The notes under the pieces were generated by a model. It saw only the letters and a list, made by a program, of their open reading frames with translations, was not told where the DNA came from and did no database searches. A DNA stretch of 64,000 bases from Modestobacter sp. VKM Ac-2984 (lineage in GTDB: Bacteria; Actinomycetota; Actinomycetes; Mycobacteriales; Geodermatophilaceae). Of this stretch, positions 6,878 through 37,429 are shown one piece after another; the stretch's first letter is position 1, and each line of letters opens with the position of its first letter. The DNA is taken from NCBI RefSeq assembly GCF_026967985.1, contig NZ_JAPVBJ010000008.1, forward strand, positions 62,001-126,000, given 5' to 3'. The position numbers and the translations under genes were made by a program.

Positions 6878-6903
6878 GGGGCCAAGATCGCGACTCTGGC
6901 CCC
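6878..6903. repeat. Palindromic element family B copy 1 (glgC/udgX junction)
   Basis: 26-bp imperfect dyad with GGGGCC and GGCCCC ends and a central TCGCGA, seven bases past the glgC stop and ending nine bases before the udgX stop. The position between convergent genes suits a bidirectional terminator. There is no U-tract. Related copies occur at 17605-17638, 35408-35433 and 35449-35474. Confidence 0.75.
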
Positions 6904-17604: not shown

Positions 17605-17638
17605 CCCTGGGGCCAAAGTCACGACTTTGGCCCCAGGG
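17605..17638. repeat. Palindromic element family B copy 2 (phr/nei gap)
   Basis: 16-bp perfect arms (17605-17620 and 17623-17638) separated by AC. The core is GGGGCCAAAGTC with its mirror, the most symmetrical of the four family B copies. It abuts the phr stop codon at 17639 and precedes nei on the minus strand. It may terminate phr or cap its mRNA. No U-tract. Confidence 0.8.
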
Positions 17639-34265: not shown

Positions 34266-35111
34266 GTGACCGCAGCGACCCCCACCGTCGAGGGCCTCTC
34301 CGAGCTCGCCGACCTGCTCGCCCACGGTGGAGCCGTCGTCCTCTCCGGTGCCGGGCTGTCCACCGACTCCGGCATCCCCGACTACCGCGGCGCCACCGGC
34401 TCGCTGCGCCGGCACACGCCGATGACGTACCAGACCTTCACCCGTGACCCGCGGGGCCGGCACCGCTACTGGGCGCGCAGCTACGTCGGCTGGCGGCAGA
34501 TCGAGCGGGCCCGCCCCAACGCCGGGCACCGCGCGGTGGCGGCGCTGCAGCAGGCCGGGGCGGTCGGCGAGGTGATCACCCAGAACGTCGACGGGCTGCA
34601 CCAGGCCGGGGGTGCCCGCGACGTCCTGGAGCTGCACGGCGGGCTGGACCGCACCGTCTGCCTGGCCTGCGGTGACATGGCCTCCCGTGCCGACCTCGAC
34701 GTCCGGCTGCGGGCGGTCAACCCCGGGTTCCGGCCCGAGCCGACCGACGAGGTCAACCCCGACGGCGACGTCGAGCTGCCCGAGGAGGCGCTCGACGGGT
34801 TCGTGATGGTCGACTGCCTGGCCTGCGGCGGAGGGCCGCTCAAGCCCGACGTGGTCTTCTTCGGCGAGACCGTGCCCCGCGACCGCGTCGACGCCTGCTT
34901 CGCCCTGGTCGACGGCGCCCGGTCACTGCTGGTCCTCGGCTCGTCGTTGACCGTGATGAGCGGCTACCGGTTCGTCATCGCCGCCGCCAAGCGCGGCATC
35001 CCGGTCGCCATCGTCAACTCCGGGTCCACCCGCGGGGACGCGAAGGCCACGGTCAAGGTCGACGCGCCGCTGGGTGCGGTCCTGCCCGAGCTGGCCCGCC
35101 GACTGGGATGA
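34266..35111 (+). CDS. Sir2-family NAD-dependent protein deacylase
   Basis: 281-aa sirtuin. The NAD-binding VVLSGAGLSTDSGIPDYRG is at about residues 24-42, and ITQNVDGLHQAGG with the catalytic His in VLELHGGL follows. CLACGDM and CLACGGGP supply the four zinc cysteines, and LVLGSSLTVMSGYRFV completes the Rossmann fold. It removes acyl groups from protein lysines. The GTG at 34266 is used, as upstream frames are not supported. It overlaps the next gene by ATGA. Confidence 0.92.
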   Translation: MTAATPTVEGLSELADLLAHGGAVVLSGAGLSTDSGIPDYRGATGSLRRHTPMTYQTFTRDPRGRHRYWARSYVGWRQIERARPNAGHRAVAALQQAGAVGEVITQNVDGLHQAGGARDVLELHGGLDRTVCLACGDMASRADLDVRLRAVNPGFRPEPTDEVNPDGDVELPEEALDGFVMVDCLACGGGPLKPDVVFFGETVPRDRVDACFALVDGARSLLVLGSSLTVMSGYRFVIAAAKRGIPVAIVNSGSTRGDAKATVKVDAPLGAVLPELARRLG

Positions 35112-35407
35112 GCCGTGAGGTCGAGCGCACCGCGGACGGCCGCTGGGTCGTCGCCGACGGCCGGCGCTGGCGGACCGCCGACCCGGCGCTGCCGGACGAC
35201 GTCCGCGCCCGGCTGCTGCACCACCTGGGCGTGGCCCGCTCGGCGGTGCGCACGTCGCGCGGGGACGACGACGCGGTGGCCGCCGCCCGCGCCCGGGTGC
35301 AGCTGGCCAAGACCGGCCTCGGTGAACGCGGCCCCGCCTGGTGGGACCAGGACGATGCCGAGCGCCGGGCCCGCTGGGAGACCGCACTCCGCACGCTCGA
35401 CACCTGA
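35108..35407 (+). CDS. Small conserved-type protein of unknown function
   Basis: 99 aa, hydrophilic. It begins SREVERTADGRWVVADGRRWRTADPALPDD and ends in a helix (WWDQDDAERRARWETALRTL). Similar small actinobacterial proteins are, as far as I recall, often mislabelled Tol biopolymer transport proteins, but nothing in this sequence supports that function. Coupled to the sirtuin gene by ATGA. Its stop abuts the family B repeats. Confidence 0.7.
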   Translation: MSREVERTADGRWVVADGRRWRTADPALPDDVRARLLHHLGVARSAVRTSRGDDDAVAAARARVQLAKTGLGERGPAWWDQDDAERRARWETALRTLDT

Positions 35408-35474
35408 AGGGCCACAATCGCGACTTCGGCCCCTCAAGACCGTTGGGAGGGGCCGGACTCGCTACTTCGGCCCC
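35408..35474. repeat. Tandem pair of family B palindromes
   Basis: Two 26-bp copies, 35408-35433 and 35449-35474, recur at a 41-bp period. Flanking CGGCCCCTC and GTTGGGAGG / GCTGGGAGG sequences are also repeated. The ends are RGGGCC and GGCCCC with TCGC(G/T)A centres. They fill the gap between the small protein gene and the Pyr_excise-type gene, both on the plus strand. Confidence 0.75.
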
Positions 35475-35524
35475 TCGACGGCTGGGAGGTTGGCCGACGG
35501 TCGGCCCGGGCAGGAAGTCGGGCG

Positions 35525-36442
35525 ATGCAGACGTTCCTGCCGGTCGCCGACTTCACCGAGTCCGCCCGGCTCCTGGACAACCCTCGGCTGGGCAAGCAGC
35601 GGGTCGAGTGCCTGCAGGTGCTGCGCGCCCTCGAGCTCCCCGACTACGGCTGGGCCAACCACCCGGTCGTCACCATGTGGCGCGGGCACACCGCCGGGCT
35701 GGTCGTCTACTCCCTGGCCATGGTGCGGGTCTGGCGTGAGCGCGGGTTCGCCGACAGCACCGAGACGCTGATCTCCGAGTTCGCCCCGGACGCCGCGCGG
35801 CTGACCCAGACCGAGGCGGCTGCGGCCGGGCTGCTGCCCACCTGGGTGGGCGACGAGGAGCTGCACCGCTCGCACCGGTCGAACCTGCTGGCCAAGGACC
35901 CGGCGTTCTACCGGTCCCGGTTCCCCGGCGACCCCGACGACCTGCCGTACGTCTGGCCCGGGGCCGACGACGTCCCCCGGGCGCCCGAGCCCGAGGGGGT
36001 GCCGGTCTGGGTCGTGCGGCCACGGGCGCACAACGAGCTCGGCGCGGCGCTGGCCACCGGCGTGGTCGGGCTGGGCACCCAGTCCGGCATCGACGTCGAC
36101 GCGACCGGCCAGTCGCCGGCCGAGCTGCGCGCGCTGTCCAAGGAGCTCTCCGGCCGCCGCCCGGCCAAGGACCTGCGGCAGCTGTCGGCCTTCCTCGACG
36201 AGGTGGCTCCCGGCGACCTGGTCGGGCTGCCGGTCGAGCTCGGCGCCGGGCTGCTGCTCGGCGAGGTCGTGGGCGACTACGCCTTCGCCGCGAAGGAGCT
36301 GCTGCCGCACCGCCGTCCGGCCCGGTTCACCTCGGTGGTGCCGCGGTCGGCGGCGCGGCCGCCGGCCACCCTGCAGGACCCGCGGGCGCTGTTCCGCGTG
36401 GTCCTCGACCCCGCCGCCGTGCCGACGGGCCTCCGGCCCTGA
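35525..36442 (+). CDS. Pyrimidine-dimer DNA glycosylase-like protein (MSMEG_6728 type) with extra C-terminal domain
   Basis: 305 aa. The first ~145 residues (MQTFLPVADFTESARLLDNPRLGKQRVECLQVLRAL, then WANHPVVTMWRGH) match the Pyr_excise/MSMEG_6728 family, related to T4-type UV endonucleases. From about 155 a second domain begins WVVRPRAHNELGAALATG and continues with FLDEVAPGDLVGLPVE, LLLGEVVGDYAFA and SVVPRSAARP, resembling the PUA/EVE-like N-terminal domain of Mrr-type restriction proteins. The fusion suggests recognition of damaged or modified DNA. Function untested. Fold assignment of the C-terminus is moderate. Confidence 0.78.
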   Translation: MQTFLPVADFTESARLLDNPRLGKQRVECLQVLRALELPDYGWANHPVVTMWRGHTAGLVVYSLAMVRVWRERGFADSTETLISEFAPDAARLTQTEAAAAGLLPTWVGDEELHRSHRSNLLAKDPAFYRSRFPGDPDDLPYVWPGADDVPRAPEPEGVPVWVVRPRAHNELGAALATGVVGLGTQSGIDVDATGQSPAELRALSKELSGRRPAKDLRQLSAFLDEVAPGDLVGLPVELGAGLLLGEVVGDYAFAAKELLPHRRPARFTSVVPRSAARPPATLQDPRALFRVVLDPAAVPTGLRP

Positions 36443-36538: not shown

Positions 36539-37429
36539 TCAAGCCAGGCCGGCGTGGACCTCCTCGACCGCGGCGGCCAGCCGGGCGCGGGCTTCGGGGA
36601 GGTCCGCCGGCTCCCGCGCCGCGTGCACGAACCACCAGGCGCCCGCGTAGAGCCGCCGCAGCCAGACGAAGGGCGCCAGCTCGGCATCGCCCACGGGATC
36701 GGGCATCGCGTCCAGCGCCGCCCGGCCGTCGAGGCGAGCAGAGGCGCGCAGACTGGCCAGGTCCCAGTGCCGCGGGCCACGGCTGGTGTCCTCGAGGTCG
36801 GTCCAGCGCAGCCCGTCGCCGGTGACCAGCAGGTTCCCCGGGTGCGTGTCGCCGTGCAGCGTCATCTCGGGGCCGGCGAGCCGGGGCCGCAGGGCGGTCA
36901 CCAGCTCCTCGACCTCGCCGAGCAGCGTGCGGTCCGCGCCCAGTCGGGTGCCGGAGGCGACGAAGACCGCCAGGTCCTCCAGCGGCCGGTCCAGCGGCGA
37001 GCCGGTCCACAGCGGCGGCAGCGTGTCGAGCACCTCGTGCAGCTCGGCCAGCGACCGGCCGGCCTGCGCCGCGGTCGGTCGATCCGGCGACACGTCGACA
37101 TGTCGCCAGAACGACACGGTGAGCCCGTCGTGCTCGTGCGGGCCGGGTGGCAGCAGGTCCGTCGGCGGCACGACGGCCGCCCCGGCTTCGGTCAGCGCCG
37201 CGGCGAGCGCCACCTCCCGGGTGAACGGCCGGTCGATCTCCGGGCGGAGCAGTGGTGTGTACACGGCCACCCGGGCCACCACGGGTGCCGGGCGCAGGTG
37301 CACCACGGCGTTGACGCCCCAGGACAGCAGCGCCGGGTCGTCGACGGGGAGGCCGTGCCGCCGGGCGACCGCGACCGCGGCGGCGACGGCCTGCTCGACC
37401 GTCGCCGTCGCCGTCGCCGTCGCCGTCAC
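36539..37429 (-). CDS. Aminoglycoside phosphotransferase-family (APH) kinase-like protein
   Basis: 296-aa protein-kinase-like fold. The catalytic loop LHGDTHPGNLLVTGDGLRWTDLEDTSRGP supplies the HGDxHxxN and D(L/F)ED motifs of APH/choline kinases. PPVARV-type ATP-lobe sequence (APVVARVAVYTPLL) is at the N-terminus. The substrate could be an antibiotic or a small metabolite. The first ten residues are MTATATATAT, encoded by a hexanucleotide repeat (37401-37427), so the exact start is uncertain. It overlaps the upstream thioesterase gene. Confidence 0.82.
   Translation of the reverse strand: MTATATATATVEQAVAAAVAVARRHGLPVDDPALLSWGVNAVVHLRPAPVVARVAVYTPLLRPEIDRPFTREVALAAALTEAGAAVVPPTDLLPPGPHEHDGLTVSFWRHVDVSPDRPTAAQAGRSLAELHEVLDTLPPLWTGSPLDRPLEDLAVFVASGTRLGADRTLLGEVEELVTALRPRLAGPEMTLHGDTHPGNLLVTGDGLRWTDLEDTSRGPRHWDLASLRASARLDGRAALDAMPDPVGDAELAPFVWLRRLYAGAWWFVHAAREPADLPEARARLAAAVEEVHAGLA
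37401..37427. repeat. Hexanucleotide microsatellite (GTCGCC)4.5
   Basis: Four and a half perfect GTCGCC units lie at the very start of the APH-like gene and encode alternating Ala-Thr. The 6-bp unit keeps the frame when copy number changes. Confidence 0.85.

Follow-up and report, generated by a model that had tools for sequence, protein, structure and literature searches.

In T4 endonuclease V (DenV; Pyr_excise, PF03013), Thr2 is the N-terminal nucleophile once the initiator methionine has been removed, and Glu23 is catalytic. The MSMEG_6728 family (NF038085) carries a domain of this kind, and in the literature searched we found neither a known function for the family nor a published activity for any of its members. 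EVE domains, members of the PUA superfamily, are the modified-base sensors of EVE-HNH restriction enzymes such as VcaM4I (PMC7897488), and Mrr-type restriction enzymes and McrB-like AAA proteins carry a sensor domain (PADLOC PDC-S02) at their N terminus. Restriction glycosylases of the R.PabI type excise bases at unmethylated sites (PMC7806768, PMC4615327). Here we describe a gene in a 64,000-nucleotide stretch of the Modestobacter sp. VKM Ac-2984 genome (the window) that joins a glycosylase-like domain of the MSMEG_6728 family to a PUA-superfamily domain with kinship to the restriction sensors (Table 1). The join is real and old: Geodermatophilaceae and Kineosporiaceae conserve the fused protein over its whole length, so the fusion is not a chance event. 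It is also apparently undescribed. Searches of the open-licence literature for the family names returned incidental mentions only, and a description elsewhere is possible; the main text of the EVE/DCD survey contains neither 'glycosylase' nor 'Mrr' (PMC7641849).

The N-terminal domain is matched over its full length by NCBIfam NF038085 (MSMEG_6728_fam; E = 7.9e-65, 217.4 bits against a cut-off of 100), and residues 1–79 are matched by Pfam PF03013 (E = 5.7e-20, 71.9 bits against a gathering score of 23). We aligned 32 MSMEG_6728-type sequences with DenV as encoded in the T4 genome record, with further DenV-type proteins of phages and with Pyr_excise proteins of other Actinomycetota. Compared as profiles, the MSMEG_6728-type set and the DenV/cellular Pyr_excise set align at an hhalign E value of 1.8e-5 (probability 78), and the N-domain profile gave no match to T4 DenV alone; judged by these comparisons, the sequence kinship to T4 endonuclease V is remote. 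Unlike the T4 enzyme, the fusion protein has an additional conserved part at the end of its N-terminal domain (HxSHRSxL...YxWP) and a fused PUA-like domain. The AlphaFold model of the full-length protein is of high confidence (mean pLDDT 93, pTM 0.87), which suggests a fixed predicted arrangement of the two domains. Foldseek matches in the PDB listed for this model all fall on the C-terminal domain, with no direct match of the N-terminal fold to a solved endonuclease V, and PDB sequence searches with either domain returned nothing convincing. Matches in BFVD to the full-length model fold were to the giant-virus proteins Pithovirus W5S5R3, Lausannevirus F2WLV7 and a Pithovirus LCPAC101 'putative endonuclease' (E values of 1e-5 to 4e-4).

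The catalytic positions of T4 endonuclease V have counterparts in the fusion protein. Pfam profile coordinates (obtained with short N-terminal pieces), MAFFT and hhalign alike pair T4 Glu23 with Glu28, with a one-residue ambiguity between Glu28 and Val27, and position 28 is glutamate in all 164 family members whose motif could be parsed. Of 167 distinct family members, 166 begin with MQTF and one with MQTY, and MAFFT places Met1 on Thr2 of the T4 enzyme. The position of the N-terminal residue is thus conserved but its identity is not: Met1 followed by Gln2 occupies it in all members, whereas T4 endonuclease V presents threonine after removal of its methionine. Cellular Pyr_excise proteins begin with Met-Arg rather than Met-Thr, indicating that the wider family is not defined by threonine as such and that keeping Met1 is usual outside the T4 group. 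Neither Met-Arg nor Met-Gln is a usual substrate of methionine aminopeptidase. An ungapped reading, in which both catalytic residues would be lost (Thr2 to Gln2 and Glu23 to Gly23), was ruled out by the Pfam coordinates and the profile alignments, which pair Glu23 with Glu28 and Thr2 with Met1. Glycosylase/AP-lyase activity of the N-terminal domain is plausible on this evidence, and we infer an active enzyme of the N-terminal-amine type in which the alpha-amine of Met1 would take part in catalysis. Standalone MSMEG_6728 proteins (L120, L205, L207, L208, L210 and similar ones) end in a basic tail, RRRSRAAKKAWxTRRxN, possibly a nucleic-acid-binding extension.

The C-terminal half has no match among all Pfam and NCBIfam models, YTH and EVE included. 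PADLOC PDC-S02 models match residues 161–276 at 1.7e-7; against a whole Mrr-type relative they score 1.5e-133. In four Geodermatophilaceae genomes, tblastn returned an additional and weaker match to the C-terminal half (E about 1e-8), and these matches belong to separate Mrr-type proteins that carry the homologous domain at their N terminus. In three of the four, those whose frame reads on, an Mrr-like nuclease part lies downstream of it, and the one that was scanned matches Mrr_cat at 1.6e-21. A profile of the fused C-terminal domains retrieved the same domain from other Mrr-type enzymes, from McrB-like AAA proteins, sometimes twice, and from CBS-like proteins; the McrB and CBS proteins and most of the Mrr ones were assigned by eye. 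By sequence comparison, then, the domain is homologous to the N-terminal sensor of Mrr-type restriction enzymes and McrB-like ATPases. It differs from these sensors in standing at the C terminus and in lacking a nuclease or AAA partner, Pyr_excise being the sole Pfam domain of the fusion protein. The source genome has one further sensor-domain match (G000:C21:46574-46999), within a 751-residue open frame that is possibly an McrB-like protein.

The predicted structure of the C-terminal domain (pLDDT 88, from a 21-row alignment) has a PUA-superfamily fold. Its best PDB matches are YTH domains, headed by YTHDF2 (Foldseek E = 2.4e-4, probability 1.00), although TM scores reach only 0.38–0.50. YTH rather than EVE thus heads the fold list, and the domain is, as modelled and aligned, both PUA-like and a sensor domain of the Mrr-like kind. 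The earlier note, made from the sequence alone, had taken the N-terminal half for an MSMEG_6728-type Pyr_excise domain and likened the C-terminal half to the N-terminal domain of Mrr-like restriction proteins with a PUA-like fold. The family profiles, the PDC-S02 and tblastn matches with their Mrr_cat relative, and the AlphaFold and Foldseek check bear out each of these assignments.

The fused domains have lost an aromatic residue that their sensor relatives carry after strand 2 (GIGW), at the position of Thr185. Among the 68 fused domains with a residue at this aligned position, none is aromatic (57 Thr, 4 Val, 4 Ala and one each of Leu, Glu and Ile), whereas 23 of 27 non-fused domains have an aromatic there (18 Trp, 4 Phe, 1 Tyr; the others 2 Ala and 2 Leu). 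Rows were sorted into fused and non-fused by a short text match, and two were reassigned by hand: L078, which is CBS-like and not fused, and L059, which is fused and cut by a contig end. Many fused rows are closely related, so these figures count sequences rather than events, and one loss in the ancestor of the clade would be enough to account for all fused rows. By analogy with its place in YTH and EVE domains, the aromatic residue probably lines the base pocket. This pocket is not uniform among EVE domains: it is formed by P24, W82 and Y130 in VcaM4I, which does not conserve one of the two residues W26 and Y82 of the P. syringae protein (PMC7897488).

The fused proteins share a motif near the C terminus that distinguishes them from the Mrr and McrB sensors. 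The pattern [LM]QD[PV][RQ]xxF, which reads LQDPR and then F290 in the Modestobacter protein, was found in 67 of the 68 fused proteins, and a contig end truncates the one without it; none of the 89 standalone proteins has it. The standalone proteins lack the region altogether, so the informative point is that LQDPR persists in lineages whose mid-domain has changed. This middle part shows strong divergence in families f6, f56, f104 and f106, and in some lineages the sensor part has diverged while the N-terminal domain stays conserved.

The fusion is nearly universal in its own family and is inherited vertically. Of 99 Geodermatophilaceae genomes, 90 contain a match (82 of the 88 of good quality); 86 matches are near full-length, another is divided between two contigs and the remaining three are short and unfused, which puts a single-copy fusion gene in about 87 genomes. 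The closest homologues, at 95% identity, are those of Modestobacter sp. VKM Ac-2985 and Ac-2982. The fusion is also found in Kineosporiaceae and relatives (Kineococcus, Pseudokineococcus and Quadrisphaera), and residues of the fused C-terminal domain are strongly conserved across Geodermatophilaceae and Kineosporiaceae. Divergent fusions occur in four families within the class (f6, f104, f106 and f114) and one outside it (f56). In a class-wide sample the N-terminal domain was present in 104 of 395 genomes; most of the proteins are short and standalone (about 150–215 residues), and, counted by hand, 5 have the PUA fusion and 17 another tail. Phages of Gordonia, Microbacterium and others also encode the N-terminal domain, without the PUA fusion in the phage loci read. 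Their genes adjoin genes for replication and repair (ligase-like, DNA helicase and DNA polymerase III alpha), and one lies beside an RNA ligase and a tRNA cluster. A comparison with plasmids covered six records, queried with the N-terminal domain.

In a maximum-likelihood tree of the N-terminal domain, built on 149 columns and with many inner forks unresolved, the standalone, PUA-fused and RecQ-like-fused groups each require one change (support 99/84, 98/76 and 100/96). A single origin of the PUA fusion therefore fits the tree best. In the sister clade the same glycosylase-like domain is joined to a RecQ-like helicase part, a fusion that likewise has one origin in the tree. Its members are L109, L111 and L223 (504–564 residues) and L098–L106, L108, L110, L115, L116 and L222 (312–331 residues). 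The tail of L111 gives weak RecQ matches (7.8e-6) and a match to PADLOC DpdF (5.4e-13). The Walker A lysine is apparently gone in this tail (GAGATATG, GTGGSTTG), which in most members is only about 170–190 residues long; from these two features the RecQ-like part seems to be a decayed motor.

Gene order around the fusion is conserved among the family loci compared. A Sir2-family gene, a conserved 99-residue ORF, the fusion gene and further shared genes follow one another in 10 of 10 Geodermatophilaceae loci compared. This order is not shared by the Kineosporiaceae and other loci compared, the Kineosporiaceae loci having no Sir2 gene at this place, and the convergent APH gene was seen, among the loci compared, in Modestobacter only. 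No recognised defence genes stand beside the fusion in the loci examined.

Upstream of the fusion gene, searches for LexA (SOS), RecA-NDp and SigF promoter patterns found none; a SigF-like pattern, which may be a chance match, precedes two standalone relatives only. By eye, an AGGAT-like element precedes the start codon by about 8–16 bases in the window (about 35500–35524) and in L037, L047, L062 and L063, and could be the -10 element of a leaderless transcript. An interspersed palindrome close to GGGGCCGAAGTCGCGACTTCGGCCCC occurs at four sites in the window (8 strand matches against 0.04 expected), including a tandem pair immediately 5′ of the fusion gene. The genome contains more copies elsewhere, and copies also precede the gene in L032 and L034.

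Table 1 Features of the fusion gene and its surroundings, in window positions
Feature	Position	Strand	Basis
Palindrome sites	6878-6903, 17609-17634, 35408-35433, 35449-35474		Pattern search of window
Sir2-family protein, conserved upstream neighbour (start approximate)	34275..35111	+	Pfam SIR2 1.5e-35
Conserved small upstream ORF, 99 aa, 4-base overlap with Sir2 gene	35108..35407	+	No Pfam match
Fusion gene, MSMEG_6728/Pyr_excise plus PUA-like domain, 305 aa	35525..36442	+	ORF and translation
Glycosylase-like N-terminal domain, residues 1-145	35525..35959	+	NF038085, PF03013, profile alignment with T4 DenV and cellular Pyr_excise proteins
Invariant N-terminus Met1-Gln2-Thr3-Phe4	35525..35536	+	MQTF count; MAFFT
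Glu28, counterpart of T4 endonuclease V catalytic Glu23	35606..35608	+	Pfam coordinates, MAFFT, hhalign
Pro/Ala-rich linker, residues 146-158	35960..35998	+	Lies between the two domain matches; aligned sequences vary here
PUA-superfamily (YTH/EVE-like) C-terminal domain, residues 159-305	35999..36439	+	Sequence homology and predicted fold
Thr185, aromatic (GIGW) in sensor relatives after strand 2	36077..36079	+	Sensor-profile alignment
Fusion-specific motif LQDPR, residues 283-287, then F290	36371..36385	+	Motif count
Aminoglycoside-phosphotransferase-fold (APH) protein, convergent neighbour	36539..37429	-	Pfam APH 6.2e-13

The reading that we consider most likely, and to which we give about an even chance, is that the fusion protein is a chromosomal repair enzyme of the T4 endonuclease V superfamily with its C-terminal domain as an accessory DNA-binding domain. 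The N-terminal domain would flip out and excise a damaged base, in a UV dimer or another lesion. The free alpha-amine of a retained Met1, whose removal Gln2 would block, may attack the sugar, with Glu28 as putative catalytic acid/base, and the strand would then be cut at the abasic site by beta-elimination. The C-terminal domain would have been captured once from a restriction-type modified-base sensor and would no longer read methylated bases through an aromatic pocket. It may instead pack on the N-terminal domain, perhaps through the LQDPR tail, and act as a further clamp on the DNA, positioning or stabilizing the lesion complex. A stress role is consistent with the M. smegmatis family member, which is listed in a sigF-mutant table (-5.57/-4.75) as part of the SigF-dependent, stationary-phase and stress regulon (PMC4694148).

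Within the literature searched, the earlier note's view that the fusion had not yet been described holds, and the fusion is neither universal, by our taxonomic survey, nor assigned a function. Its proposal of a defence or damage-signalling protein that reads a modified base fares less well. Defence genes are usually patchy and mobile. A single-copy gene that is syntenic in 10 of 10 loci and vertically inherited in about 87 of 99 family genomes is unlike one, shows no mobile or defence-island context in the loci compared, and looks like inherited repair machinery rather than phage defence. The loss of the pocket-side aromatic also weighs against the proposal. We regard it as distinctly unlikely that the protein is a modification-dependent restriction glycosylase, in which the C-terminal domain would recognise a modified base in phage or plasmid DNA and the N-terminal domain would excise bases and break the strand. 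The homology to Mrr and McrB sensors and the PDC-S02 matches speak for such an enzyme, and the R.PabI and HALFPIPE enzymes offer a precedent for attack on foreign DNA by base excision (PMC7806768, PMC4615327). Those enzymes, however, belong to another protein family and are encoded by restriction-modification genes, whereas the fusion is a conserved core gene, without recognised defence neighbours in the loci examined, whose sensor part has lost its aromatic and, in some lineages, diverged beside a conserved N-terminal domain.

That the C-terminal domain is a damage reader, recognising a specific lesion or an oxidised or deaminated base and delivering it to the glycosylase or licensing the enzyme, ranks second among the readings but seems doubtful. 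EVE domains do flip modified bases (PMC7897488), and the domain is kept across the whole clade with strong conservation in the two main families, but the aromatic on the pocket side has given way to Thr, Val, Ala, Ile, Leu or Glu, and the mid-domain divergence of f6, f56, f104 and f106 is hard to square with one conserved ligand. A two-step, reader-directed glycosylase, in which the YTH/EVE-like domain would read a damaged or modified base that the glycosylase then excises, whether to survey DNA for damage or to act against foreign DNA that is modified, we hold to be unlikely. That the entire protein works on RNA or nucleotides and not on lesions in DNA, its DNA-repair domain name being misleading, is in our estimate very unlikely. 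YTH and PUA domains often bind RNA, and the phage homologue next to an RNA ligase and tRNA cluster fits such a role, yet the superfamily precedent, T4 endonuclease V, works on DNA and other phage homologues adjoin DNA replication genes.

The bacteria that carry the fusion live in sun-exposed, dry habitats. The MSMEG_6728 family is common in Actinomycetota and present in phages, and the fusion ties it to DNA handling. On the repair-enzyme reading, a sensor domain of restriction systems would have become part of a process that is probably core DNA repair.
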